Source: a virus
IMG/VR virus record: IMGVR_UViG_3300037069_000806
Span: 1 to 64,000 of that record
Direction: 5' to 3' (one strand)
DNA length: 64,000 nucleotides
This document shows, piece by piece, positions 3,260 to 45,293 of this stretch (position 1 is the first letter of the stretch; each line of letters begins with the position of its first letter). Under the pieces are notes generated by a model, which was not told the origin of the DNA, searched no databases, and saw nothing but the letters and a program-made list of their open reading frames with translations. A program made the translations under genes and the position numbers.

Positions 3260-5005
3260 ATGCCTAACTACATGCGTCCTGGTGTCTACGTGGAGGAGTA
3301 CCTCCAGCCGCTGACCCAGGCAGCCTCCGCTTCGGGGGACGCTGACTACGCGTTCGTCGGCCCCGTTGCTCGGGGTCCCGTCGGTCCGGTCCAGGTCTCG
3401 TCCTGGTCGCAGTTCGTCGGCATGTACGGCGGGCTCGACGGCGACTACCTGGCCTACGCGGTCTACCAGTTCTTCAACAACGGTGGGCGGGCCTGCTACG
3501 TCGTCCGCTCGATCCGGAGTGACGCGGTTGCGGGCACGCTGCACGTGGCGGACCGGCAGGCCATCGCGGCTCCCACGACCAAGGCGCGCGCAGGGACGAC
3601 TGCGACCATCACGACGGGCGCGCCACACGGGCTCCTGATCGGTCAGACGGTCACCGTCACGGGCGTGGACGCCGCGCTCGACGGCACTTGGCCGGTTCTC
3701 TCCACCCCGACAAGCACGACCTTCACGTACGCGACAACGGCCTCAGGCACCATCGCCTCGGCAGCGGCCACCGGCACCATCGTGGTCAACGCCATGGCGG
3801 TCTCCGCCGTCTCGGCGGGCGCGTGGGCTGGCAACGTCTACGTCGAGGTCCGCGACTCCGCGACTGCGGGCCCGGGTACCGGCCGGTTCGATCTGGTCGT
3901 TCGGTACGGCGGCACGGCGGACAGCAACGTGGTGGAGCGCTTCGCCGACGTCACGCTGAACCCGTTGGACAGCCGCTACGTCGTCGGCATCGTCAACAGC
4001 GCCCAGTCAGGTTCGACCTACATCAACCTGACCAACCTGGAGGTTGGCACCTGGGCGGTCACCGAGACCCCCGTCGTGCTCGCTCCGGCTGCGCTTGCCG
4101 GTGCTGCGGACGGTTCGGGCAGTTACAACCGGGTCGCGGACACGCAGGCTCTGGAAGCGGTGGGGACGGTCCTGGACGTCAACCTCCCGGGCTACACCAA
4201 CCAGACTGACCTGAACACCCTGATTGCCTGGGCCGAGACCAACAACAACTACTTCCTGGTGATCGACAGTCCGGCCACCGCCGCGACTGAGGCGGCGACC
4301 ATGTCCGCTATCCAGGCCTACCTCGTGGGCGGTGGCTCGGCGCTGACGCCGACCTCCAAGGCCGCGATCTACGGCCCGTGGCTGAACGTGGACGACCCGC
4401 TCCAGCAGATCCCCGGCTCGATCAAGCCGCTGCCCCCGGGCGGCGCGGTGCTCGGCCGGTTCTCGCAGAGCGACGCGACCCGTGGGGTGCAGAAGGCTCC
4501 GGCGGGAATCGACATTCCGCTACGCGGCATCGTCAGCGTCACCCAGCGGTTCGTGTCCTCCAACCAGGACACCCTGAACCAGGCGGGTTTCAACCTGATC
4601 AAGCCGATCCCGGGCGCAGGCATCTGCGTCATGGGCGCGCGCACCCTGAAGTCAGGTACTCCGGACCGCTACGTCAGCATCCGACGCAGCCTTCAGGTGA
4701 TCGAGAAGTCGCTGGTGGACAACACCCGGTTCGCGATCTTCGAGCCGAACGACAGCGACCTGTGGGACACCATCGGGGCGATCCTCACTCAGTACCTCAC
4801 TGCGATGTTGCAGATCGGGGTCCTGAAGGGGGCCAGTCCCGAGGAGGCGTTCTACGTCAAGTGCGACAACGAGAACAACTCAGCCTCCGACGCGGCGAGC
4901 GGAATCGTCAACGTCGAGGTGGGCGTGGCTCTCGCATCTCCTGCGGAGTTCATCGTGATCCGCATCGGCCAGTTCGACGGTGGCACCGCCACCTCTACTT
5001 CGTAA
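3260..5005 (+). CDS. Tail sheath protein
   Basis: A 581-residue protein beginning MPNYMRPGVYVEEY, the diagnostic PGVYVEE N-terminus of contractile sheath subunits that links neighbouring protomers. The C-terminal half has the conserved sheath core (PPGGAVLGRF...RGVQKAPAG near residue 395, then a VSIRRSLQVIEKSL segment). A beta-rich insertion of about 120 residues (roughly 95-240), with TGTIVVNA-like strands, probably forms an outward domain. The tube protein follows 14 nt later, the usual pairing. The sheath polymer contracts to drive the tube through the host envelope. Confidence 0.95.
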   Translation: MPNYMRPGVYVEEYLQPLTQAASASGDADYAFVGPVARGPVGPVQVSSWSQFVGMYGGLDGDYLAYAVYQFFNNGGRACYVVRSIRSDAVAGTLHVADRQAIAAPTTKARAGTTATITTGAPHGLLIGQTVTVTGVDAALDGTWPVLSTPTSTTFTYATTASGTIASAAATGTIVVNAMAVSAVSAGAWAGNVYVEVRDSATAGPGTGRFDLVVRYGGTADSNVVERFADVTLNPLDSRYVVGIVNSAQSGSTYINLTNLEVGTWAVTETPVVLAPAALAGAADGSGSYNRVADTQALEAVGTVLDVNLPGYTNQTDLNTLIAWAETNNNYFLVIDSPATAATEAATMSAIQAYLVGGGSALTPTSKAAIYGPWLNVDDPLQQIPGSIKPLPPGGAVLGRFSQSDATRGVQKAPAGIDIPLRGIVSVTQRFVSSNQDTLNQAGFNLIKPIPGAGICVMGARTLKSGTPDRYVSIRRSLQVIEKSLVDNTRFAIFEPNDSDLWDTIGAILTQYLTAMLQIGVLKGASPEEAFYVKCDNENNSASDAASGIVNVEVGVALASPAEFIVIRIGQFDGGTATSTS

Positions 5006-9567: not shown

Positions 9568-10448
9568 TGCCTGTTCCCCCGCCCCAGGACAACAACATCG
9601 GCAGCGGCGACGCCACGATTGGCTCAGCCACCTACGACTACATCGTCGGCACCGGATCCAACGGCAAGCCGTCTAAGCAGGGACTGGTGTACTACCAGCC
9701 TGCCTTCGACCCGCGCATCCTCACGACCCCGCACTGGGGCGGCGTTCCGGTGCAGCGCGGTCGGATCCGCACGGACCCTCAGTTCGCTCCCGACCCTATC
9801 TACACCAACCTGGGTCTGAACTTCCTGTACAACCCCACCCAGTTGGACGAGTCCTTCTCGGTCGACCCGACCGCTCAGCCTGCTGACGTGAAGAGCCAGT
9901 ACGACACGTCCAAGCAGATCGGCGCGATGGGGCAGATGAACTTCAGCCTGCTCTTCGACCGCACCTACGAACTGTGGGACCGCAAGTACGTCAACACCCC
10001 AGTGGGGCAACTCGGCGTCTACACCGACGTTCGTCAGTTGTACGCCATGGTAGGGATGATCGACGCCCAGAAGATCTTCAGCGAGAACATCGAGCCCATC
10101 GCATACCCCATGACCGGCGTCTCATGCTGGTTCTTCTTCGGCAACCAGTACGGGGACCCCCCTCACCGGAACCGTGGTCCCCAGCCGGTGAAGAGGGGCG
10201 CGCAGAACCGCTCCCTGATCTACTACGGCCGAATCATCGGTCTCGACGTGACGTACTCCTCGTGGACCGAGTCGATGACTCCCAAGCGGGCGGCCGTGAG
10301 CCTCACGGTGCAGATGATGACCCCGTCCCAGTCTCACATCGACTTCACCAACCCTCCGTGGAGCAACAACAACTCCGGGGGCGGCGCAGCCAGTCCGACC
10401 AAGCCCGCACCAAAGGCATCACCGCCTGTCTACTTCCGGGGGCACTGA
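9567..10448 (+). CDS. Baseplate/tail protein, unknown type
   Basis: A 293-residue protein whose ATG overlaps the tape-measure stop by one base. It has a conserved-looking core (WGGVPVQRGRIRTDP, NLGLNFLYNP, SLLFDRTYELWDRKY) and a Pro/Gly-rich C-terminal tail. No enzyme motif. Position between tape measure and hub genes suggests a baseplate hub or tail-tube initiator component. The family was not recognised with certainty. Confidence 0.6.
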   Translation: MPVPPPQDNNIGSGDATIGSATYDYIVGTGSNGKPSKQGLVYYQPAFDPRILTTPHWGGVPVQRGRIRTDPQFAPDPIYTNLGLNFLYNPTQLDESFSVDPTAQPADVKSQYDTSKQIGAMGQMNFSLLFDRTYELWDRKYVNTPVGQLGVYTDVRQLYAMVGMIDAQKIFSENIEPIAYPMTGVSCWFFFGNQYGDPPHRNRGPQPVKRGAQNRSLIYYGRIIGLDVTYSSWTESMTPKRAAVSLTVQMMTPSQSHIDFTNPPWSNNNSGGGAASPTKPAPKASPPVYFRGH

Positions 10449-19533: not shown

Positions 19534-21570
19534 ATGACTGTCTTCTTCCCTGGCCCCCTGAGCGGCCACGTCGGGCTCTCCGGTGACATCACGCTGCGCA
19601 AGTTCGTGCCCGCCAACAGCCTGTCCGACTTCGCCTACTGGCACACCAAGCGCAGCCAGATCACCGCAGGGAACGACCGGCCGGACCCGATCATGACGCT
19701 GGTCACGCAGTCCGACGAGTACACCAACACGACCTGGGTCCGGCCCGCTGTGGCCGCGACCGCTCCCCGCGAGTACTACAAGACCTTCGACCCAGTTAAC
19801 CCGGACTCCTCGGTTCTGCTCTGGCCACGGGCGAAGTTCGCGGCGGTCAAGGCGATCTGGGATGCGGTCCCCAACAACGAGGCGCACCTGCTGACGGACG
19901 TCCAGTTCGAGCAGTCCCAGGGCAGCCTTCGCAACCTGCTGTCCTTCGAGGCCGCGACCATGGAGGGGCGCGTCTTCCCCTACGTGGAGTGGGTCGGGGG
20001 CGGCACCGCCACGCTTGACGTCAATGGGTACCCCGGCGTGGACCAGAGCACTGACCGGGCCTTCTCCGGCACGCACTCCTGCAAGGTGCTCGGGGCTTCG
20101 GACGGAGCGAACTACTCCCCGATCACCACTCCCTTCTTGGGAATGGGGGACGTCGCTGGGATGGATGGCGAGTACATCACGGGCCAAGCGATGATCAGCG
20201 CTTCCACCAGCGGCAGGCAGTACGAGTTGAACGTTCGGTTCTACGACGCGAACGGTGCGGCCCTCGGCACCGTGACCTCCTCGACCATGACGAGCAACGG
20301 CACCGACACCTGGATTCCGGTGACCATGATCGCTCTCGTCCCGGCTGGAGCCATCTGGGCTTCGGTGGTGGGCGTCGGGCTGGCGCAGAAGTACAAGTCT
20401 GCGACGGCAGCCTCCTGGTCGTACGACTCCACCAGCGGCAAGAACACAGTCACGACCACAGCCGCCCACAACTTCGACGCTGGGCAGGAGGTCATAGTCA
20501 ACACGAGCGAGGCCGACATCAACGGCACCTTCGTGATCACCGACGTGACCAGCACCACCTTCTCGTACCGGGTCTCACCGGCCCCCGTCTCGTCGGGAAC
20601 CTGCACCGGGACCGCGCAGGCATACGACGTGTTCTACGTGGATGACACCCGGCTGCTAGCGCCGCAGGCTTCCTACGGCCCTCGCGCCTACCAGTCGCCC
20701 CGCTCGTTCAACATCAAGGTGCGCCCTCAGAGCATCAACCGGGTCCGGAATCCCAGCATCGAGGACGCGACCATCGGAACACGCGGCTACGCGGCCTTCG
20801 GTCCTGGCACCCCGGCGGTCAGTCGCGACACGACAGTAGCCAAGAGCGGCGCGGCGTCCCTCCACGTTCACGTCCCCTACAACGCGGGAGCGACGACCGA
20901 CACCTACGGGGTTCGAACGACCACGTCAGCCGACGGGGTCAACAACTCGCTGGTGACCGGTCTGAAGCCCTCCACGACGTACACCTTCAGCACCTGGCTC
21001 AAGCAGGGACCCGGCTGCCCCAACGTCCGGACGCTCTTCGGAGTGGGGGAGGACCGGTTCAGCGGGCTAACCGCAGCAGACATCCGGGCCATGCATTCCA
21101 ACAACCCCATGTACGTGGATGGGGACTGGACCCGGCTCTTCTACACCTTCACGACCTCCGACAGCGAACTCACGGGCGAGTGCTTCCTCAAGGCCTACAT
21201 CGCCAACGACGACCAGCAGTCTGGGGTCAACTCCGACTTCTGGATCGACATGACCATGGTCATCGAGGGCAACCTGCCGGGCGACTACTTCGACGGCGGC
21301 ACCAGCATCGACACGATGTGGACCGGCACCCCGTCCTGGTCACGCAGCCATTACTACCCGGGGCTCCGCGAGCGGTCAACCGTCTTGACCGAACTGGTTA
21401 CGAATGCGCTTCCCAGAGATGCGGCTTTCACTGTTACATTCGGAGTGGACGAAGACCAGTACATCCCGTCCGTCGGAACACCCGCTGCCCCCGGCGCACC
21501 TGGACCGCGCTACCTCGGGCGCGACTCGCCATACCCGGAGCGGCTCATCGCCGCCCTGTCGTCGTACTAG
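19534..21570 (+). CDS. Tail fibre with jelly-roll carbohydrate-binding domains
   Basis: 678 residues in a tail-distal position. Two CBM-like beta-sandwich units are visible: one around residues 150-260 (FSGTHSCKVLGASDGANYS), another beginning INRVRNPSIEDATIG near 405 with KSGAASLHVHV and GLKPSTTYTFSTWLK. A small Ig/ubiquitin-like insertion, AHNFDAGQEVIVN, lies near 310. No hydrolase motif was recognised. It probably determines receptor specificity together with the collagen-like fibres. Confidence 0.68.
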   Translation: MTVFFPGPLSGHVGLSGDITLRKFVPANSLSDFAYWHTKRSQITAGNDRPDPIMTLVTQSDEYTNTTWVRPAVAATAPREYYKTFDPVNPDSSVLLWPRAKFAAVKAIWDAVPNNEAHLLTDVQFEQSQGSLRNLLSFEAATMEGRVFPYVEWVGGGTATLDVNGYPGVDQSTDRAFSGTHSCKVLGASDGANYSPITTPFLGMGDVAGMDGEYITGQAMISASTSGRQYELNVRFYDANGAALGTVTSSTMTSNGTDTWIPVTMIALVPAGAIWASVVGVGLAQKYKSATAASWSYDSTSGKNTVTTTAAHNFDAGQEVIVNTSEADINGTFVITDVTSTTFSYRVSPAPVSSGTCTGTAQAYDVFYVDDTRLLAPQASYGPRAYQSPRSFNIKVRPQSINRVRNPSIEDATIGTRGYAAFGPGTPAVSRDTTVAKSGAASLHVHVPYNAGATTDTYGVRTTTSADGVNNSLVTGLKPSTTYTFSTWLKQGPGCPNVRTLFGVGEDRFSGLTAADIRAMHSNNPMYVDGDWTRLFYTFTTSDSELTGECFLKAYIANDDQQSGVNSDFWIDMTMVIEGNLPGDYFDGGTSIDTMWTGTPSWSRSHYYPGLRERSTVLTELVTNALPRDAAFTVTFGVDEDQYIPSVGTPAAPGAPGPRYLGRDSPYPERLIAALSSY

Positions 21571-25600: not shown

Positions 25601-26036
25601 CATCGACAACGCTGTCGAGCCGCGTCTGCTGCTTGTGTGGGAGAACCTTGTGGCGCTCCCTCCGCAGGAGGCCGAGGGCGTCAAGCGCTGGTTCCAGCGG
25701 AAGACCCTGGCCAAGGCGGTCAACGCCTGGACCCTGAACAGCCCGCTCGCCCTGCGGCTGTACGACATCACGTACCGCAAGGGCTACAACGTCGACGTCG
25801 TCTCGTTCATGGACCATGAGTTCGAAGAGGCCATCCGGGACTGGTGTGAGGACCGGCATCATCTACCCGTCGGCCAGGTCTACACCACCGACCCCGACAT
25901 CCTGGCCCGTGAGATCGCGTGGCGTCCCGAGGTCGCCGCGATCTACGACCCGAACCCCGGGCACATCTTCACCTGGGGGAGCAAGGGACGCATCGTCAAC
26001 TCTGCTGCTCCTGACCTATTTGGCCTCGGCCGATGA
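25587..26036 (+). CDS. Unknown protein, possible HAD-like fold
   Basis: 149 residues from GTG. Segments LLVWENLVALP, YRKGYNVDVVSFMDHEF and VAAIYDPNPGHIFTWGSKGRIV recall HAD-like small phage proteins, but the Asp nucleophile is not obvious. It lies between the zinc-finger gene and DnaB, with a 4-nt overlap into the helicase. The gene at 52773 has a similar ending logic. Confidence 0.5.
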   Translation: MLKGDIDNAVEPRLLLVWENLVALPPQEAEGVKRWFQRKTLAKAVNAWTLNSPLALRLYDITYRKGYNVDVVSFMDHEFEEAIRDWCEDRHHLPVGQVYTTDPDILAREIAWRPEVAAIYDPNPGHIFTWGSKGRIVNSAAPDLFGLGR

Positions 26037-27313
26037 GTCAGGACTTCGAGCACCTACTCATCCGGAAGATCCTCGGCGAAGAGGACTTCGGCCCGGTCGC
26101 GGACGCAGGCGTCACCCGCAAGTTCTTCCTGAACAAGGGTCACCGCGACGTCTTCGACATGATCGTGTCGCACAAGGCCGAGTACGGCGTAGTACCCACG
26201 GTCGAGACAGTGCAGGCCGACTTCCCCACGTACAACCTGAAGGAAGCCGCAACCGAGGCCTACCCGTTCCTGATCGAGCGGCTTCAACACCGGCACGCCA
26301 TGGCCCTCGCCGAGCACGGCCTGGCCGAGGCAGCCGAGGCGCACGATGACGGGGACCTGGAGACCTTCAAGGCGAAGATCGCCTCCACTCTGTACGAGAT
26401 AGAGAAGGACGTACCCCGAGCCCGCGACACCGACATCACGAAGACTCGTGAGGACCGGTGGGCTCGCTACATGCAACTGAAGAACCAGAAGGACGGCCTG
26501 CGCGGGATCCCCACCGGCTTCCGCACCATCGACAAGGCGACTCAGGGTCTCCAGCCAAAGCAGTTGGTCACCTTCATCGGGCCGCCGAAGGCTGGCAAGT
26601 CCACCCTCATGCTGCTTGCTGGTATGAGTGCGGCGCGTGACCTCAACCGTGTGTTGTTCGTCGGGTTCGAGATGTCCAACGATGAGCAGGAGGAGCGCTT
26701 CGACGCGATCCATGCGGGCATCTCCCACTCGCACCTGCGTGGCGGTCAGATGACCGCCGAGGAGGAGAAACGGCTGGTCCGCTCGATGAAGATCATCGAG
26801 GAGTACCCCGACTACATCCTCAGCAACGACACCTCGGGGGCCATGACGCTGACCGGGATCGCCTCGAAGGTCGAGCACTACCGACCAGAGATCCTGTTCG
26901 TGGACGGAATGTACATGATGCACGACGAGCAGTCCGGCGAGACCAACACCTCGCAGGCGCTGACGAACCTGACCCGTGGCTTCAAGCGGCTGGCACAGAG
27001 CCTGGACATCCCCATCGTCATCAGCACCCAGGTGCTGGAGTGGAAGATGGACAAGAAGAAGGGCGTCACCAGCCAGAGCATCGGCTACTCGTCCTCGTTC
27101 GCACAGGACTCCGACGTGATCCTCGGTGTCGAGCGCGTGGACCCGGAGATCGAGGAGAACCTCAACAAGGTCAAGGTCGTCCTGTCCCGAAACTGCCCGC
27201 CCATGGAGTCCTACATCCGCTGGGACTGGGAGCACGGCAAGTTCCAGGAGCAGGCCGAGGACTACGTGCCCGGCGGCGACGACGAGAGCGGTGTTCCTCG
27301 TGCGGCGTTCTAA
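26033..27313 (+). CDS. dnaB: DnaB-like replicative helicase
   Basis: 426 residues with a DnaB N-terminal helical domain (to about 125) and a RecA-like motor domain. Walker A is GPPKAGKST (183-191), Walker B ILFVDGMYMM near 286, followed by an arginine- and Gln-containing stretch, PIVISTQVLEW. DnaB-type helicases form hexamers that unwind DNA 5' to 3' at the fork and recruit primase. Neighbouring loader and primase genes confirm the assignment. Confidence 0.88.
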   Translation: MSQDFEHLLIRKILGEEDFGPVADAGVTRKFFLNKGHRDVFDMIVSHKAEYGVVPTVETVQADFPTYNLKEAATEAYPFLIERLQHRHAMALAEHGLAEAAEAHDDGDLETFKAKIASTLYEIEKDVPRARDTDITKTREDRWARYMQLKNQKDGLRGIPTGFRTIDKATQGLQPKQLVTFIGPPKAGKSTLMLLAGMSAARDLNRVLFVGFEMSNDEQEERFDAIHAGISHSHLRGGQMTAEEEKRLVRSMKIIEEYPDYILSNDTSGAMTLTGIASKVEHYRPEILFVDGMYMMHDEQSGETNTSQALTNLTRGFKRLAQSLDIPIVISTQVLEWKMDKKKGVTSQSIGYSSSFAQDSDVILGVERVDPEIEENLNKVKVVLSRNCPPMESYIRWDWEHGKFQEQAEDYVPGGDDESGVPRAAF

Positions 27314-35507: not shown

Positions 35508-37139
35508 ATGTCTGTTTCCGTTCGCCCTGCCACGTCTATGTCCGACTTTGCGCGCACCATCTACGAGCAGAAGTATCGCCAGCCCGATGAGACCGACTGG
35601 GTGGACACGGCCCGTCGGGTGGTCGCCACGGTGATGGAGCCGTACTTCCCAGAGATGGTCGAGGAGACCGTGGCTCTCGTGGCAGCGCGGAAGTTCATGC
35701 CAGGCGGCAGGTACCTATACGCCACAGGGAAGCGCTTCCACCAGACCCAGAACTGTCTGCTCCTCCGAGTCGAGGACAGTCGCGAGGGTTGGGCCAGCCT
35801 GATGCAGCGGATCACCAACGGGCTCATGACCGGGGCCGGTATCGGCTGCGTCTACTCCGCCTTGCGGCCGAGCGGGGCACTGGTCAAGGGCATGGGCGGG
35901 CTCTCCACCGGACCGCTGGCGCTCATGCAGATGGTCAACGAGTCGGGCCGCCACATCATGCAGGGAGGCTCGCGACGGGCCGCTATCTGGGCGGGTCTTC
36001 ATTGGAACCACGCCGATGTCTTCGACTTCATCCGGATCAAGGACTGGTCCGACGACATCAAGGTGATGAAGGAGCAGGACTACAACTTCCCCGCGCCGAT
36101 GGACATGACCAACATCTCGGTGATCCTGGACGACGACTTCTTCGAGGCTTACGCCAACGCCGACGACCCGATGCATGACTGGGCCCACCGGGTGTACTGG
36201 GAGACGGTCGAGCACATGCTCACCACCGCCGAGCCTGGCTTCTCCGTAGACAGTGGCGCGAACGCGGGGGAGAACCTGCGCAACGCCTGCACCGAGGTCA
36301 CCTCGTCCGACGACAACGACATCTGCAACCTCGGCTCGCTCAACCTCGCCCAGTTCGACACCATCGAGGAGTTCGAGCGCGCGGTCTTCCTGGGCACGGC
36401 CTTTCTCCTCTGCGGCACCCTCTACTCCAAGGTCCCCTACGAGGAGGTGGCTGAGGTTCGGACGAAGAACCGCCGCCTCGGCCTGGGTCTCATGGGCATC
36501 TACGAGTGGCTGGTCACCCGGGGCTACGAGTACAAGGAGAACGACGAACTGGCCCTGTGGCTGGATCAGTACGCGCTCAGCGGGGAGTACGCCAACACTC
36601 TGGCTGACTTCCTCGGCATCTCTCGGCCGGTCAAGACGCGGGCCATCGCGCCGACCGGCACCATCGGCATCCTCGCCGAGACCACGACCGGCATCGAGCC
36701 CCTGTTCGCGACCGCGCTGAAGCGTCGGTACCTCAAGGGCACCGAGTGGAAGTTCCAGTACGTCGTGGATGCCACCGCACAGCGGCTGCTGGACAAGGGC
36801 GTGGACCAGTCCCTCCTAGTGGACGCCTACGACCTGGCGGAGAACCCAGAGCAGCGCGTTGCGTTCCAGGCATGGGTGCAGCAGTGGGTGGACCACGGAA
36901 TCTCCAGCACCCTCAACCTCCCGGCCCGCGACCAGCAGTCGTTCACCACCCGGGAGTTCGGGGACATGCTGATGGGCTACCTGCCACGCCTTCGCGGGGT
37001 CACGTGCTACCCCGACGGCGCGCGCGGTGGACAGCCGTTGACCAAGGTCCCACTCGCCGAGGCCATGGAGTGGGAAGGCCTGGAGTGGGATGAGGTCGGC
37101 AACGGACTTGCGTGTGTGTCAGGGGTCTGTGGTATTTGA
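35508..37139 (+). CDS. nrdJ: Ribonucleotide reductase, class II-like (adenosylcobalamin-dependent)
   Basis: 543 residues. Signatures are FMPGGRYLYATG and NCLLLRVEDS (first active-site Cys), the NACTEV radical-site motif and DICNLGSLNL, the APTGTIGILAETTTGIEP nucleotide-binding segment, and a C-terminal CVSGVC redox Cys pair. A single chain with no adjacent small subunit or activase points to class II, which uses coenzyme B12. It makes dNTPs for phage DNA synthesis, acting with ThyX and the dNMP kinase downstream. Actinomycete hosts supply cobalamin. Confidence 0.87.
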   Translation: MSVSVRPATSMSDFARTIYEQKYRQPDETDWVDTARRVVATVMEPYFPEMVEETVALVAARKFMPGGRYLYATGKRFHQTQNCLLLRVEDSREGWASLMQRITNGLMTGAGIGCVYSALRPSGALVKGMGGLSTGPLALMQMVNESGRHIMQGGSRRAAIWAGLHWNHADVFDFIRIKDWSDDIKVMKEQDYNFPAPMDMTNISVILDDDFFEAYANADDPMHDWAHRVYWETVEHMLTTAEPGFSVDSGANAGENLRNACTEVTSSDDNDICNLGSLNLAQFDTIEEFERAVFLGTAFLLCGTLYSKVPYEEVAEVRTKNRRLGLGLMGIYEWLVTRGYEYKENDELALWLDQYALSGEYANTLADFLGISRPVKTRAIAPTGTIGILAETTTGIEPLFATALKRRYLKGTEWKFQYVVDATAQRLLDKGVDQSLLVDAYDLAENPEQRVAFQAWVQQWVDHGISSTLNLPARDQQSFTTREFGDMLMGYLPRLRGVTCYPDGARGGQPLTKVPLAEAMEWEGLEWDEVGNGLACVSGVCGI

Positions 37140-38982: not shown

Positions 38983-39337
38983 CTGGAGCAGGGCCAAGTG
39001 CGTCCGCTTCCCACCCAAGCGGGACGCTGACCCCTGGTACGACGACATGGACGAGGCTATTCAGGTCTGCAACGGGGACGCCGACGGCATCGTCTGCCCG
39101 CTCCGCCAGCAGTGCCTGGAGTTCGCGCTCGTCAACAACCTGGCGCACGGGATCTTCGGTGGCATGTACGAGCATGACCGCCGCCGCCTGCGACGCGACG
39201 CCCGCGAGGTCAAGAAGCCGTGGCATCAGGCCATCGAGGACGGTGATTGGACATGGCAGGAGCCAACCGAGTTGTGCGACGACGCACCGGAGGAAGTGGA
39301 GCCGGAGGAGGACGAGTACGACCCCGAGGCAGCCTAG
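38942..39337 (+). CDS. WhiB-like Fe-S transcription factor
   Basis: 131 residues from GTG (ATG 38951 possible), overlapping the resolvase by 41 nt. Four Cys at about 20, 43, 52 and 58, then GIFGG at 70-74 and the basic tail HDRRRLRRD, match the WhiB plan: iron-sulfur cluster, G-x-x-GG turn, DNA-binding tail. The spacing between the second and third Cys is 8 residues, against the usual 2, so the cluster loop is expanded. WhiB proteins bind sigma factors and are confined to actinobacteria and their phages, which supports the host assignment. An acidic C-terminal extension follows. Confidence 0.8.
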   Translation: MNAMVMRLRTPAPDWSRAKCVRFPPKRDADPWYDDMDEAIQVCNGDADGIVCPLRQQCLEFALVNNLAHGIFGGMYEHDRRRLRRDAREVKKPWHQAIEDGDWTWQEPTELCDDAPEEVEPEEDEYDPEAA

Positions 39338-40377
39338 AGGCCCTGGCCACCGCCCGGAACAAGGAGTCGATCCTCGGCGACATGGAGGAGCACCTCCTAG
39401 CCAAGTACCAGGAGGAGAACGACCGGCGGCAGGACGTCATCCATCCCTCGGAGATGGCCAAGGCTGACTGGTGTCCTCGTGCTACCTACTACCGGATCCG
39501 CGACGCACGTCTGGGTCTGTACACGAACACGGCTGAGAAGTTCAGCGGCCAGCGCGAGCGCATCTTCCAAGAGGGCCACGACATCCATCACAAGTACCAG
39601 GGCTACCTGCGCGCGATGGGTGTGCTCTGGGGCAAGTGGACGCGGCTCGACAAGGCCGACACCTACGTGGGTCTACCCCCCGAGAAGGAGATGCGGCCAG
39701 GACAGTGGCGCTACGACGAGGTCCCCCTGTCGTCGCCCCGGCTGCTGATCTCTGGCCACGCCGACGGGGGGCTGCCGTACCGTTCCGGGATCCTTGAGGT
39801 CAAGTCCATCGGCACCGGGACGCTGCGGTTCGAGAACCCCACGTTGCTGACCAAGCACACCGTCGAGGCGACCACCGTGACCGGGGTCACCAAGAAGATC
39901 GTGGATCTGGACGGGCTCTGGCGTGACATCAAGCGCCCCCTCGGCAGCCACCTCAAGCAGACCTTCATCTACGGAGTGCTCGCCACCGAGATGGGGCTCC
40001 CGTTCGACAAGACGATCTTCATCTACGAGAACAAGGCCACCCAGGCGGTGAAGCAGTTCGAAGTGAAGTTCGATCCCGAAGCGGTTGACAAGCAGATCGG
40101 CGCGGCGCTTGACATCAAAGCAGCGCTGGACGATTCTGGACATCTACCCAAGAGGCCCCGCCACACGGGCACCGACACCAAGATCTGCAAGGCCTGCCCG
40201 TTCCTGAAGGAGTGCTACGAGAATGAGCCGACGGACGACCGCGAGACGAGCGCCCATGAAGATGGGGTCGAGCAGCCGCGCCGCGTCCGAGTCGTTGACG
40301 ACTCAGGGACTTCATCTGCCGGAGCGCCCGAGAGGCGACGTGCCCGGGTTGCCCGACGACCCTACCGGCCTGACTGA
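39253..40377 (+). CDS. Cas4/RecB-type Fe-S exonuclease
   Basis: 374 residues from ATG 39253; the start is uncertain, with TTG 39247, GTG 39274 and ATG 39382 also in frame. The core has WCPRATYYRI (first Cys), ISGHADGG and ILEVKSI (active-site Asp and E-x-K), QTFIYGVLA, and a CKACPFLKEC cluster. This is the RecB-like nuclease plus 4Fe-4S arrangement of Cas4 and phage exonucleases. No CRISPR array or other cas gene is present, so it probably generates single-stranded ends for RecA. The C-terminus is basic and probably disordered. Confidence 0.8.
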   Translation: MAGANRVVRRRTGGSGAGGGRVRPRGSLEALATARNKESILGDMEEHLLAKYQEENDRRQDVIHPSEMAKADWCPRATYYRIRDARLGLYTNTAEKFSGQRERIFQEGHDIHHKYQGYLRAMGVLWGKWTRLDKADTYVGLPPEKEMRPGQWRYDEVPLSSPRLLISGHADGGLPYRSGILEVKSIGTGTLRFENPTLLTKHTVEATTVTGVTKKIVDLDGLWRDIKRPLGSHLKQTFIYGVLATEMGLPFDKTIFIYENKATQAVKQFEVKFDPEAVDKQIGAALDIKAALDDSGHLPKRPRHTGTDTKICKACPFLKECYENEPTDDRETSAHEDGVEQPRRVRVVDDSGTSSAGAPERRRARVARRPYRPD

Positions 40378-40914: not shown

Positions 40915-41264
40915 CCAGCATCTGGCGTGCTCAGGTCACTCGTCCCACTGAGCCCTGGCGGTTCAGTGGCGAATACGGCGCGCTCCTCAATGTGGACGTC
41001 GCCCTCTCCCCGGACTACGGGTCGGATTGGGCGGTCTTCTGGAGCGGTGGCGAAACGTTGACCCACGTCCGGTTCACCGAGGAGGGGGTCCGTCCTGCGA
41101 GTCCCCAGGTCCGGATCCCAGAGGAGGCGGCCAGGGCCCTGTATGACGCGCTGGGCTACTACTTCGGCGGCCACTCCACCCCCAACCAGGCCGCCCTGGC
41201 TGATGCGCTGAAGGTCGAGCGCGGCCGGGTGGACCTCGTCCTGAAGAAACTCCTGGAGGACTGA
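40911..41264 (+). CDS. Unknown protein
   Basis: 117 residues from ATG inside the previous gene. Beta-rich N-terminus (ALLNVDVALSPDYGSDWAVFWSGGE) and helical C-terminus (PEEAARALYDALGYYFGG, then ERGRVDLVLKKLLED). The TGA overlaps the Pup-like start. No enzyme motif recognised. Confidence 0.55.
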   Translation: MTSIWRAQVTRPTEPWRFSGEYGALLNVDVALSPDYGSDWAVFWSGGETLTHVRFTEEGVRPASPQVRIPEEAARALYDALGYYFGGHSTPNQAALADALKVERGRVDLVLKKLLED

Positions 41265-41461
41265 TGAGCGAGCAGACGTTCAAGAACACCCAGTCCTCGA
41301 AGACGGAGGAAGCGGATGTGGTGGCTCCGGTTCCCACCGAGAGCATCGCGGATCAAGAACTGATGAAGAGCACCGACGACCTGCTGGACGAGATCGACAC
41401 GCTGCTGGAGCCCAACGCCCAGGAGTTCGTGGACGGTTTCGTTCAGAAGGGCGGCGAGTGA
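41264..41461 (+). CDS. pup: Prokaryotic ubiquitin-like protein (Pup)
   Basis: 65 residues, the normal size of Pup. The N-terminal half is disordered and polar. The C-terminal half is the Pup signature, with STDDLLDEIDTLLEPNAQEF followed by VDGFVQKGGE. The central helix binds the Mpa/ARC proteasomal ATPase coiled coil; the C-terminal Gly-Gly-Glu is the residue linked by PafA to substrate lysines. Because it ends in Glu, no Dop deamidation should be needed. No PafA, Dop, Mpa or proteasome gene is visible, so it would have to use host enzymes. It overlaps its neighbours by 1 nt on each side, so it is co-translated with ThyX. Confidence 0.9.
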   Translation: MSEQTFKNTQSSKTEEADVVAPVPTESIADQELMKSTDDLLDEIDTLLEPNAQEFVDGFVQKGGE

Positions 41462-42162
41462 TGCGGCTGCGCTCTGACATGACCGTCGAACTGGTCCAGA
41501 AGATGGGGGACGACGAGACCCTGTGCAAGGCCGCTCGCGTGTCCACGCTGGGTACCGCCAGCCTTGAGACGACCGAGAGCAGTGGCCTCCTCAACTTCCT
41601 GATGAAGGGGAGGCACGGAAGCCCGTTCGAACACGGGTCCATGACGTTCCTGATCGAGGCCCCGATCTTCGTGTTCCGGGAGTTCCACCGGCACAGGGTC
41701 GGCTGGTCGTACAACGAGACGTCGGGTCGGTACCGGCAACTGGAGCCGGTCTTCTACGTGCCCCCGACCAACCGCCCCCTCAAGCAGGTGGGTAAGGCCG
41801 GGGAGTACTCGTTCGAGCCGGGAACGTCCGAGCAGAGGGGCCTCATCGCGAAGGCCGCCGGAGTTTGCTACGGGACGGCGTGGAGCGCGTACAAGTCGAT
41901 GCTCGCAGAGGGTGTCGCCAAAGAGGTCGCCCGGATGGTGCTGCCTGTCGGCATCTACTCCTCGATGTACGCCACCTGCAACCCGCGCTCGCTGATGCAC
42001 TTCCTCAGCCTGCGGACCACCGAGCCGTCCCCGTCGGCCACCTTCCCCTCGCACCCGCAGTACGAGATCGAGTTGGTCGCCCGGCAGATGGAGTTCATCT
42101 TCGCCGACCTCTTCCCGCTCACCACGGTGGCCTGGAACCTCAACGGAAGGGTGGCACCCTGA
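41461..42162 (+). CDS. thyX: Flavin-dependent thymidylate synthase ThyX
   Basis: 233 residues. The ThyX signature RHRVGWSYNETSGRY (77-91) supplies RHR and the S-x-N-E-x-S-x-R-Y residues that bind dUMP and FAD. GSPFEHGSMTF near 53 and NPRSLMHFLSLR near 175 are also family blocks. It methylates dUMP to dTMP using methylenetetrahydrofolate and FADH2. It works with the ribonucleotide reductase and nucleotide kinase encoded nearby. The ATG shares a base with the Pup stop. Confidence 0.93.
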   Translation: MRLRSDMTVELVQKMGDDETLCKAARVSTLGTASLETTESSGLLNFLMKGRHGSPFEHGSMTFLIEAPIFVFREFHRHRVGWSYNETSGRYRQLEPVFYVPPTNRPLKQVGKAGEYSFEPGTSEQRGLIAKAAGVCYGTAWSAYKSMLAEGVAKEVARMVLPVGIYSSMYATCNPRSLMHFLSLRTTEPSPSATFPSHPQYEIELVARQMEFIFADLFPLTTVAWNLNGRVAP

Positions 42163-42434
42163 TGGCGAAGCAGACGTTCTACGCGGTGGCTGAGCCTGTG
42201 TTCAGCAAGTGGGCCAGGGACAAGGACGGCGACCCTCGGCTTGACTCGTTCAGGGTGACCAAGGTGTTGCAGACCCGCCCGGTCGGCACACTCAAGGCCG
42301 GGTCTCTGGCCGTCAAGTTGACGATGGAGATTCCAGACCGGGCCTTCGCCCCGTTGCGCCCTGAGGTCAACATCGTCATCCCCGAGGAACTGGTGCAGTA
42401 CCCGGTGGCTGTGGTCGCGGCGGACGAAGGATGA
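42162..42434 (+). CDS. Unknown small beta-rich protein
   Basis: 90 residues; ATG overlaps the ThyX stop. Sequence AKQTFYAVAEPVFSKWARDKDG, then LKAGSLAVKLTMEIPDRAF. Alternating strands and no catalytic motif. Function unknown. Confidence 0.5.
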   Translation: MAKQTFYAVAEPVFSKWARDKDGDPRLDSFRVTKVLQTRPVGTLKAGSLAVKLTMEIPDRAFAPLRPEVNIVIPEELVQYPVAVVAADEG

Positions 42435-42751
42435 TCCACCCCCGTCGCTGGCGCATTGTGCGCTCGATCCGCCGCCGTCTCGGTCTTCCGTGCCTGTCCG
42501 GTGCATGCGTTCGCAGCGGTCAGTGGGGCGCGCATCACACGAAGTGGTGTCACTGCGAGGACACGGACCTGACGCTCCGCGACCGCGCCATGACCTGGCC
42601 GAGCCTGACCCTCGGCGTCGAGGTGCTGCCCTGGAACTGGGAGTTCCGGTGGTGGCAGGACTGGGACATGACGTCATCCTTCGACCTTCGGTTCCTGTTC
42701 CTGCGGGTTGCGTGGTTCGCCAACCGACCGATGTTCCGGGACACGCCGTGA
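42431..42751 (+). CDS. Unknown Trp/Arg-rich protein
   Basis: 106 residues, 4-nt overlap with the gene before. Basic N-terminus (RRWRIVRSIRRRLG), four Cys within residues 21-42 (CLSGAC, CHC), and many Trp in the second half (WNWEFRWWQDWD). It may bind a metal or associate with membranes; no family recognised. Confidence 0.5.
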   Translation: MIHPRRWRIVRSIRRRLGLPCLSGACVRSGQWGAHHTKWCHCEDTDLTLRDRAMTWPSLTLGVEVLPWNWEFRWWQDWDMTSSFDLRFLFLRVAWFANRPMFRDTP

Positions 42752-43182
42752 TCGAACTGGTCGTGGTCCTGTTCATCCTGCTTGTGCTGGCGGGGGCCCT
42801 CTGGCTCCGCAGCAGCATCGTCAACAACCATCTCGAAGACATGATCGACTTGATGTCCGAACGCCTGGTCGCTGGACAGGATCGCGAGGCGGTGTGGAAG
42901 CGCCAGATGCAGAAGGTGGTCAACACCTTCGAAGAGGCCAACAAGAACATGAACCCGAACGCTCGTGGTGCGGCGCTGGCCAGTGCCCTGGCCTACAGCC
43001 AGGAAGCACAGCGGGTCACTTGGGAGCGGGACGTCATGTACGCCTGCGAGGCCGTTCCCGGCATCGTCACCACCCGCCACATGAGAGCCCGCAAGGCAGT
43101 GGCGCTTGCGTCCGACGCAGAAGCCGCGCGCCAGGGGATCACTCCCGCCCAACTCTTCTTCTCGTCCCTCAAACCCCTTTAG
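42748..43182 (+). CDS. Membrane-anchored protein, unknown
   Basis: 144 residues from GTG overlapping the previous gene. One N-terminal transmembrane helix (IELVVVLFILLVLAGALWL) leads to a long helical cytoplasmic domain (NHLEDMIDLMSERLVAGQ, MQKVVNTFEEANKNM). Function unknown. Confidence 0.55.
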   Translation: MIELVVVLFILLVLAGALWLRSSIVNNHLEDMIDLMSERLVAGQDREAVWKRQMQKVVNTFEEANKNMNPNARGAALASALAYSQEAQRVTWERDVMYACEAVPGIVTTRHMRARKAVALASDAEAARQGITPAQLFFSSLKPL

Positions 43183-43192
43183 GAGGTCCCGC

Positions 43193-43870
43193 ATGCCAAT
43201 GGTCGTCGGTCTTCATGGTTACGCCCAGTCCGGCAAGGACACCGTGGCGAAGGTGCTCATCGAGCGCTACGGCTTCAAGCGACTGGCCTTCGCCGATGCC
43301 CTGCGGGAGGCGCTCTACCGGCTCAACCCCTGGGTCTGCGTCGTGTTGCCCTTCAACTTCGACGTTCCCAAGGAAGACTACGTTCGGCTCCGCGACTTGG
43401 TCGACACCTACGGGTGGGACGAGGCCAAGCAATACCACGAGGTCCGTGTCCTCCTCCAGGCTATGGGAACCGAGGTCGGCCGGGAGGTCATCAGCGACAC
43501 GGTCTGGATCGACATCGTCCTTCGGCAGATCGAGCAGCAGTGGGACGGCCGGTTCGTGATCACCGACGTCCGGTTCGAGAACGAGGCCCAGGCGCTGGAC
43601 GATGCGTTCGGAAACACCTCCGGGGCGTCCCTGGTCCTGGCCAAGATTGTCCGCCCGGGCGTTGGGCCCGTGAACGCCCACGTGTCGGACGCCGGACTCC
43701 CCGACTTCTACTTCGATGAGACGATCAACAACGACGGGACCCTGGAAGATCTGGGGCGCGAGGTCACCGCCCTCCTGGGCCCCCTCGTCACCGGCCCCCC
43801 GGCCTCCTCTCTGCCGGTCGACCCGGTGGCGCTTGAGGCCAACGCCCTCTTCGATTCGTACGTTGGCTAG
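43193..43870 (+). CDS. Deoxynucleoside monophosphate kinase
   Basis: 225 residues, preceded by a perfect AGGAGGT ribosome site. P-loop GLHGYAQSGKDTVA is at residues 6-19, followed by FADALREALYRLNP; a LLQAMGTEVGREVISDTVW stretch near 88 and VITDVRFENEAQAL near 122 match T4 gp1-type dNMP kinases and phage adenylate-kinase-like enzymes. It feeds dNDP/dNTP synthesis along with RNR and ThyX. Confidence 0.8.
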   Translation: MPMVVGLHGYAQSGKDTVAKVLIERYGFKRLAFADALREALYRLNPWVCVVLPFNFDVPKEDYVRLRDLVDTYGWDEAKQYHEVRVLLQAMGTEVGREVISDTVWIDIVLRQIEQQWDGRFVITDVRFENEAQALDDAFGNTSGASLVLAKIVRPGVGPVNAHVSDAGLPDFYFDETINNDGTLEDLGREVTALLGPLVTGPPASSLPVDPVALEANALFDSYVG

Positions 43871-44204
43871 TCGGTCACGGGTTCATCGGGGGCGCAAGAC
43901 CCAGGAACTCGTCGCTCAGTGGTTCGAGAAGAGGGGCTGGCCCCGGGCGTACTCCAAGGGAGCGAGCGCGTCTGGCAAGGACATCATGAGGATGACCGGT
44001 CTATCCCCTGAGGTGAAGGCCACCACGGGCAGTGACTATCTCGGGGCCCTTCGCCAGGCGGAGGCGAATGCGGAGCCCGGAGACGTCTCCTTCGTTGTCC
44101 ACCGGCCCAACGGATACGGACCCGAGAAGATCGACCGATGGCTCATGATCCTCCGCCTGGAGGACGGGACCGAACTGCTGAAGAAGGCTGGTTACCAAGA
44201 CTGA
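43863..44204 (+). CDS. PDDEXK nuclease, Holliday-junction resolvase/VRR-like
   Basis: 113 residues from TTG overlapping the kinase by 8 nt. RGRKTQELVAQWFEKRGWPRAYSKGASASGKDI is followed by PEVKATT; the Asp of GKDI and E-x-K of EVKA form a nuclease site. This is the second such small nuclease in the window, distinct in sequence from that at 38620. A role in resolving replication intermediates is likely. Confidence 0.65.
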   Translation: MASRSRVHRGRKTQELVAQWFEKRGWPRAYSKGASASGKDIMRMTGLSPEVKATTGSDYLGALRQAEANAEPGDVSFVVHRPNGYGPEKIDRWLMILRLEDGTELLKKAGYQD

Positions 44205-44212
44205 CCGAATCC

Positions 44213-44258
44213 TTCGTACCCTCGTTTCGGGAATCACTTGACAACCGAGGGGTACGAA
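44213..44258 (+). promoter_or_regulatory. Inverted repeat overlapping the ribosome site of the SpoVS-like gene
   Basis: TTCGTACCCTCG (44213-44224) pairs with CGAGGGGTACGAA (44246-44258), with a one-base bulge and 21-nt loop containing TTGACA. The right arm includes the GAGGGG ribosome site and ends one base before the ATG. It could be an operator or an RNA hairpin that hides the ribosome site. Confidence 0.6.
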
Positions 44259-44549
44259 ATGGGCGCACAAGTTGATCGTGATGAGGAGAACCTGCTGCGG
44301 GTAGCCGCTACCAGCGCTCCCTCTGAGTTGGCCGCCGCTATCTCCCATGCGTTGTACGACAGCAAGCGCGTGGTTCTGCGGGCCATTGGAGCAGGAGCCG
44401 TCAACCAGTCGGTGAAGGCCATCGCCATCGCTCAGTCCTACGTGGGCCAGCGGGGGCTGTACCTGACCTGCCGACCAGGCTTTGCCACCGTGAAGATGCC
44501 GGACGGCAAAGAGGTCTCGGCCATCGTCTTCCGCGTTGAGGCGAACTGA
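44259..44549 (+). CDS. spoVS: SpoVS-family (Alba-like) protein
   Basis: 96 residues. The start at ATG 44259 follows GAGGGG; an upstream TTG (44238) is also in frame. LRVAATSAPSELAAAISHAL, then RAIGAGAVNQSVKAIAIAQ and VSAIVFRVEA match the SpoVS family, whose members have an Alba-like fold and form dimers that may bind nucleic acid. The IGAGAVNQ.VKA core is very characteristic. In Bacillus SpoVS affects sporulation. In the phage it may modify host development or coat DNA/RNA. Confidence 0.85.
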   Translation: MGAQVDRDEENLLRVAATSAPSELAAAISHALYDSKRVVLRAIGAGAVNQSVKAIAIAQSYVGQRGLYLTCRPGFATVKMPDGKEVSAIVFRVEAN

Positions 44550-44557
44550 TACTTCCC

Positions 44558-44580
44558 AACCGGTTCCTCCTACACTTCAA
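44558..44580 (+). promoter_or_regulatory. Candidate promoter AACCGGTT/TACACT
   Basis: AACCGGTT (44558-44565) is followed after 5 nt by TACACT, 29 nt before the GTG start at 44605. It begins the block of small unknown genes. Confidence 0.45.
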
Positions 44581-44604
44581 GTAGGCCTATGCCTGGAGGA
44601 ACTT

Positions 44605-44886
44605 GTGGACGGAACCAACCCATACCAGGGCCCGAGTACGGGTCAGGGTCGTCGGGCTGCGTTCATTCAGCAGGCGCTGGCGCACACAGCGCCGTACCAG
44701 CGTCGATCTGTTCTCGACTCGACTCCTTCAGGCACCGGCTACGCAGCGGCCGACCGGTCTCGGATGCTCCCGAGCGGCGACTTCTTGCACACCCCCAACG
44801 GGGTCGCCCAGGACACCTGGCAGACACGCCAGAACTCCTACCTGGACGCCCCCGCATCGAAGTTCTCGTACCGGCCGTTCGGCTAA
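44605..44886 (+). CDS. Unknown protein
   Basis: 93 residues from GTG with GGAGGA 5-10 nt upstream. Gly/Gln/Ser-rich and basic (NPYQGPSTGQGRRAAFIQQAL; RQNSYLDAPASKFSYRPFG). It appears largely disordered. First gene after a palindromic promoter-like element. Function unknown. Confidence 0.5.
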   Translation: MDGTNPYQGPSTGQGRRAAFIQQALAHTAPYQRRSVLDSTPSGTGYAAADRSRMLPSGDFLHTPNGVAQDTWQTRQNSYLDAPASKFSYRPFG

Positions 44887-44897
44887 GGAGTCCGCGC

Positions 44898-45293
44898 ATG
44901 TCTGCTTCCGCTTCCCTCAACCGTCCTGCTGGGTCTTGGACGGGCTACCCCGACCCGAGCAAGACCAACCTGATCTCCGACGCCGACGTGCGCGGCGGCA
45001 GCGCGAACTTCCCGGCCGAGGGCACCGAGGTCGCGACCCGGGTTTCCAACGTGTCCGCTGCGCCGAGCAAGAACACCAAGCCGCGCAAGAAGGGCAACGC
45101 GTCCGGCGGTGCCATCGAGGCCGCGACCGCGACCCACAAGGCCAACATCGCCGAGCGCCTGGGTGCCAAGTGTGCCCCGACGGTCCCGATGTACAAGGCG
45201 AACGCGCCCGAGGCTGGGCTGACCGGCCGCAACGTCCGCATCCTTCCTTCCTCGATGGGTAGCCGGGACTTCTACGACCGTCGCGACGCGTAG
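44898..45293 (+). CDS. Unknown Ala/Ser/Lys-rich protein
   Basis: 131 residues with AAGGAG 8 nt upstream. Low-complexity, basic middle (SKNTKPRKKGNASGGAIEAATATHK) and a C-terminus ending GSRDFYDRRDA. It could be a DNA-binding or virion-associated protein. No family recognised. Confidence 0.5.
   Translation: MSASASLNRPAGSWTGYPDPSKTNLISDADVRGGSANFPAEGTEVATRVSNVSAAPSKNTKPRKKGNASGGAIEAATATHKANIAERLGAKCAPTVPMYKANAPEAGLTGRNVRILPSSMGSRDFYDRRDA

Follow-up and report, generated by a model that had tools for sequence, protein, structure and literature searches.

Pup genes carried by tailed phages without the attaching enzymes: most likely a phage-made tag for host protein disposal

Pup is a small tag that actinobacteria join to proteins for delivery to the proteasome; in known Pups, the terminal residue after Gly-Gly is joined to lysines of the target. 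What would a phage do with a Pup gene of its own? The question is raised by a short open reading frame in IMG/VR virus record IMGVR_UViG_3300037069_000806, of which positions 1 to 64,000 form the stretch of DNA analysed here (the window); the whole record has 67,492 bases. The original prediction, made from the letters of the window, was that this frame encodes a Pup ending in Gly-Gly-Glu, in a tight operon with the thymidylate synthase ThyX and with no ligase or proteasome gene in view. We examined the identity of the protein, its genomic setting, its occurrence in other viruses and the explanations that could account for it.

The product of the frame (MSEQTFKNTQSSKTEEADVVAPVPTESIADQELMKSTDDLLDEIDTLLEPNAQEFVDGFVQKGGE) is a true Pup. 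In the profile search that had been proposed as a check, it matched the Pfam Pup family PF05639 (E=8e-17, 62.4 bits, cut-off 27), and it also matched TIGR03687 (E=8.9e-17, 60.8 bits, cut-off 41.45) and solved Pup chains of the PDB at E values of about 4e-09 (e.g. 3m91_B, E=3.8e-09). These matches are far beyond chance. No PHROG match was obtained, and the protein is thus not represented in that library of phage families. The Pup family has been defined by a length of 50–90 residues and a G-[E/Q] end (PMC2588565), and the window Pup has 65 residues and ends in QKGGE. Curated profiles, sequence and phage record thus agree on a phage-encoded Pup with a Gly-Gly-Glu end, as predicted.

The family is further characterized by a disordered N-terminus and a helical C-terminal half. 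AlphaFold predicts both for the window Pup, with moderate confidence only (mean pLDDT 64, pTM 0.31): residues 1–27 are unstructured and residues 28–61 form a helix. The helix is predicted to cover the part of known Pups to which Mpa, PafA and Dop bind, and residues 1–27 occupy what we take to be the position of the threader segment in Mycobacterium tuberculosis Pup. In the latter protein, the Mpa helix comprises residues 21–51 and the N-terminus threads into Mpa (PMC8755798), a layout with which the model of the window Pup appears to be in keeping. The coordinates of these parts and of the neighbouring genes are listed in Table 1.

Table 1. Pup, its parts and other genes of the window phage discussed in the text (positions are those of the window)
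Feature	Position	Strand	Evidence and remarks
Contractile tail sheath	3260..5005	+	phrog_17610 E=1.9e-43, phrog_23 E=1.7e-42
Ribonucleotide reductase, replication-module neighbour	35508..37139	+	phrog_84 E=6.2e-66
Cas4/RecB-like exonuclease, replication-module neighbour	39253..40377	+	phrog_2506 E=1.1e-25
Upstream gene, 121 aa	40899..41264	+	No Pfam/PHROG match; stop overlaps Pup start by one base
Pup gene, 65 aa	41264..41461	+	ATG 41264, stop TGA 41459-41461; end QKGGE; PF05639, TIGR03687, PDB Pup chains
Pup residues 1–27, disordered-type N-terminal stretch	41264..41344	+	AlphaFold pLDDT <50 at 1–6 and 11–22, no helix before 28; bacterial-Pup-like composition
Pup residues 28–61, predicted helix	41345..41446	+	AlphaFold, pLDDT about 70–83, pTM 0.31
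Pup C-terminal Gly-Gly-Glu	41450..41458	+	Sequence
ThyX thymidylate synthase, 233 aa	41461..42162	+	PF02511 E=2.2e-45, TIGR02170 E=2.3e-49; start overlaps Pup stop

One base is shared between the stop of the upstream gene and the start of pup, and likewise between the stop of pup and the start of thyX (TGATG in both cases). These overlaps on both sides place pup in a coupled run with thyX, and the tight operon that had been proposed is borne out. The contractile tail sheath identifies the record as a phage, a soil-type one of 67.5 kb, and it belongs to a set of tailed-phage hallmarks that also includes tube, tape measure, baseplate, DnaB and DNA polymerase (a DNA polymerase I). A RecA/UvsX-type recombinase, the Cas4-type exonuclease and the ribonucleotide reductase (RNR) are encoded as well. 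The host is likely actinobacterial, judging from the tail sheath, which is closest to those of Streptomyces phages (about 46% to GiJojo and BRock, BRock-like being the closest), and from ThyX, whose best relatives are found in Gordonia and Streptomyces phages (60–65%). GiJojo and BRock, to which the sheath relates the window phage most closely, have no Pup.

Pup of M. tuberculosis and Corynebacterium glutamicum resembles the window Pup in profile, length, disordered N-terminus, helical core and Gly-Gly-[Glu/Gln] end, whereas the window copy lies in a phage genome without a PafA/Dop or proteasome gene. PafA/Dop homologues (PF03136) were absent from all 52 viral records, including the full record of the window; the same search recovered two genes in the bacterial contig MT835496, which served as a positive control. 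Proteasome homologues (PF00227) were likewise absent from the whole window record, and none exceeded the family cut-off in the viral contigs checked. The absence of ligase and proteasome genes that had been noted in the window therefore extends over all 67,492 bases. In the Pup-encoding contig L013, a sub-threshold proteasome-like match was seen at 25788-26210 with 16.4 bits (E=1.6e-4).

In most, though not all, bacterial lineages, proteasome subunit genes are found near pup. Bacterial Pup-proteasome clusters are recognized by an adjacent pafA or dop and by proteasome subunits nearby, and the window Pup has neither. PafA/Dop genes lay within the 5 kb flanks of 76 of the 80 bacterial Pup loci, and bacterial pup has been reported to be invariably adjacent to pafA (PMC2588565). 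A second Pup of Saccharopolyspora spinosa (L119, 5001-5186) has no PafA/Dop within 5 kb; that genome has another Pup, and inspection by eye of the L119 surroundings revealed no obvious prophage genes.

Pup is not confined to this phage. Searches with the window Pup itself gave no match, neither by direct tblastn against 50,697 phage records nor in a first single-sequence scan of viral contigs, and alignments were required. The first alignment-based scan of IMG/VR retrieved 27 loci; with later, profile-guided scans, Pup was detected in 52 viral contigs, window included, from many tailed-phage types, and the phage Pups were sorted by eye into about 16 sequence/context groups. Virus hallmarks near the gene were checked for several contigs, L028, L161 and L162 being among those left out. 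The terminase large subunit was close to Pup in L013, L016, L039, L145 and L156, the portal in L041 and L148, a T4-type major capsid protein in L006 and a tail protein in L003. In many groups pup immediately precedes the terminase gene; in a T4-like group it lies between capsid genes and what looks by eye like a UvsW-type helicase gene, and in group C between lysin and primase-polymerase. The nearest viral context is that of L002 and L005, which have helicase and DNA polymerase in common with the window and ThyX in the genome, although 2.6–5 kb from pup rather than adjacent. The L002 Pup is 66% identical to the window Pup over residues 28–65; that of L005 differs in its Gln end and an insert.

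Two candidates were discarded. MT835496, filed as a phage, has two PafA/Dop-family genes beside Pup, as in a bacterial-type locus; Dop, Pup and PafA occur together at 41859-44998 of MT835496.1 (L031, L032), and this 'Bacteriophage sp.' entry looks like a misfiled bacterial contig. The single match in a plasmid collection fell in a Nonomuraea record of 11.85 Mb, evidently a chromosome. Several further observations were made on the Pup-carrying viruses. The capsid proteins of the T4-like contigs L006 and L020-L027 find their closest counterparts in phages of Methylophilales and Pelagibacter, which are not actinobacteria. The Pups of L004, L005, L010, L012, L159 and Streptomyces phage Dagobah contain an extra helix-like stretch of 10–20 residues before the core (e.g. 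ETLANIDDVLDEQ) that resembles an incomplete duplicate of the core helix. In the 174 kb viral contig L008, the open reading frames at 10414, 12143, 14333, 14558, 15151, 15405, 17255 and 18358 encode small proteins with a similar N-terminal stretch, M-x-x-K-x-x-V-D-x-x-L/F-x-E, which recalls the capsid-targeting leader peptides of large phages.

A phage Pup is already present in public annotation. Dagobah (MT711977), which was isolated on Streptomyces coelicolor M600 and forms plaques on S. coelicolor, encodes a 78-residue Pup (HUN42_00036) annotated as 'ubiquitin-like protein Pup'. It is 86% identical to the Pup of viral contig L010, in which the gene order is alike. The Dagobah Pup resembles the window Pup in being phage-encoded, in its Gly-Gly-Glu end and in the absence of an annotated ligase-family gene from the genome. 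It differs in its length, in the extra stretch and in Val at position −4 (counted from the C-terminus), and its gene is flanked by endolysin and primase-polymerase instead of adjoining thyX. Another host-type gene, the sporulation regulator ssgA, is found at 20593-21057 of the Dagobah genome. The words Pup, ubiquitin and pupylation are absent from the main text of the Dagobah genome paper, and a literature search, whose coverage excluded preprints and most subscription papers, retrieved no paper describing a phage Pup or viral use of Pup.

The phage copies are under constraint. The tail Q-x-G-G-[E/Q] was present in 35/35 phage Pups compared and the core L-E-x-N-A in nearly all of them, and the Gly-Gly-[Glu/Gln] end was common to these 35 and to 119/119 bacterial Pups. 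In seven phage Pup groups, pN/pS over the last 29 residues was mostly 0–0.36, apart from a few higher values where counts were small; in most pairs the N-terminal part gave the higher figure. Purifying selection on phage Pups is strongest at the conjugation end, and the low C-terminal pN/pS indicates a protein in use. A tree of 79 Pups based on 46 columns was poorly resolved, with five changes (bootstrap range 3–6); its well-supported branches are compatible with a single origin as well as with several transfers.

Two parts of the original prediction did not survive comparison with bacterial Pups. Deamidation by Dop is an established prerequisite for Pup that ends in Gln (PMC8223512), and the Glu end of the window Pup had been read as a special form selected to bypass this step. 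Glu ends 20 and Gln 14 of 34 viral Pups; the bacterial figures are 32 and 48 of 80, respectively, and 14 and 25 of 39 in a second sample. Between the near-identical phages L044/L045 and L046, the Pups are identical save for the last residue, a single Glu/Gln codon. Since host Pups, too, often end in Glu, this end gives no evidence of a special viral bypass. Nor does the poorly conserved N-terminal half separate marking for degradation from jamming, as had been suggested: at a core identity of 0.5–0.8, N-terminal identity was about equal in phage (0.27–0.28) and bacterial Pups (0.29–0.33), and the two overlap in N-terminal length and disorder-type composition.

Phage and bacterial Pups do differ at two basic positions, with the caveat that these counts ignore relatedness: position −4 (K61 in M. 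tuberculosis) is Lys in 119/119 bacterial but 20/35 phage Pups, being replaced in the other 15, and position −9 (R56) is Arg or Lys in 116/119 bacterial but 15/35 phage Pups, being lost in 20. The window Pup has Asp at −9 and keeps Lys at −4; further departures from near-invariant residues of the core are Leu at −19 and Gln at −13, and position −16 is occupied by Pro. For M. smegmatis, the main site of pupylation on free Pup is reported to be K61, and the K61R variant is joined to PanB about as readily as the wild type (PMC4783102). Loss of this Lys is thus compatible with conjugation and could limit the joining of Pup to Pup, an idea that concerns the phage Pup family and not the window copy, where the Lys is retained.

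Taking these comparisons together, we consider it probable (roughly 0.6) that phage Pup would be conjugated by host PafA and would raise or redirect host pupylation. The infected cell would contain Pup made by the phage, host PafA would attach this Pup through its terminal Glu to lysines of the cell's proteins, and the host Mpa/ARC-proteasome would take up at least part of the proteins so tagged. The Pup pool would be raised or replaced, and pupylation increased or redirected, during replication of the phage genome. Conjugation by PafA, uptake by Mpa and the benefit to the phage are what we infer here. With no ligase, depupylase or proteasome encoded by the phage, its Pup would act on supply. 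Free Pup has been described as unstable and, unless it is overproduced, as rarely observed (PMC5358908), so extra Pup from a phage could plausibly matter for the rate or the targets of tagging. In favour of a supplied tag are the profile matches, the kept tail, the selection on it, the absent partner genes, Dagobah, and the composition and length of the N-terminal part. Counting against it, of 296 genomes sampled from the phylum 127 have Pup and 169 lack it, and the changes in the core of the window Pup (−9, −19, −13, −16) might reduce its affinity for one of the enzymes.

Alternatively, phage Pup would be a decoy that floods the cell, occupies PafA, Dop or Mpa and so blocks pupylation and the proteasome, for example shielding phage proteins. 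No partner enzyme is required for this, the Mpa-, PafA- and Dop-binding region is the best-conserved part of phage Pups, many copies no longer have the basic residues at −9 and −4, and a decoy needing only to bind would also fit strong selection on the C-terminal part alone. We nevertheless regard it as rather unlikely: the Gly-Gly-[Glu/Gln] end, which a pure decoy could do without in its exact form, is present in every one of the 35 phage Pups, and the N-terminal part keeps its usual length and disorder-type composition. It is improbable, too, that the benefit lies in resources, with phage Pup boosting bulk proteasomal turnover of host proteins and freeing amino acids for virions. The window pup sits with the nucleotide-supply genes for RNR, ThyX and dNMP kinase, and recycling of amino acids in starved cells has been proposed as a role of the Pup-proteasome system (cited in PMC8223512); however, the neighbours of pup in many other phages are terminase, lysin or capsid genes, and the association with nucleotide supply is thus not a general one. 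Such positions (in several lineages the gene immediately precedes terminase and portal genes or adjoins capsid genes) would fit a Pup that tags and removes early, scaffold or packaging proteins of the phage at the right time. Gene context differs between lineages, though, and pupylation sites lack a clear motif across many targets (PMC2797603), which makes such control very unlikely. Passive carriage of a recently picked-up host gene with no role, which the small gene size and the poorly resolved tree with bacterial Pups would allow, is scarcely credible given the long divergence and purifying selection inside phage groups (C-terminal pN/pS well below 1 in seven groups), the stable positions within groups and the presence of Pup in 52 viral contigs.

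A more far-reaching suggestion, offered tentatively, is that many unrelated phage lineages may have made Pup a stand-alone host-takeover factor. The conjugation end is kept and the −4 Lys often lost, and an overproduced tag would then not be wasted on itself and could mono-tag host or defence proteins.

Eukaryote viruses exploit ubiquitin, of which Pup is the bacterial counterpart. The recurrence of orphan Pups across many phage types suggests that the Pup-proteasome system matters in phage infection. As Pup is carried by Dagobah, a phage cultured on the standard laboratory host S. coelicolor, the role of phage Pup is now open to simple genetics, and viral Pups that differ at otherwise invariant residues could help sort the residues relevant to PafA, Dop and Mpa. 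Most likely, phages that carry Pup without the attaching enzymes feed their own tag into host protein disposal.
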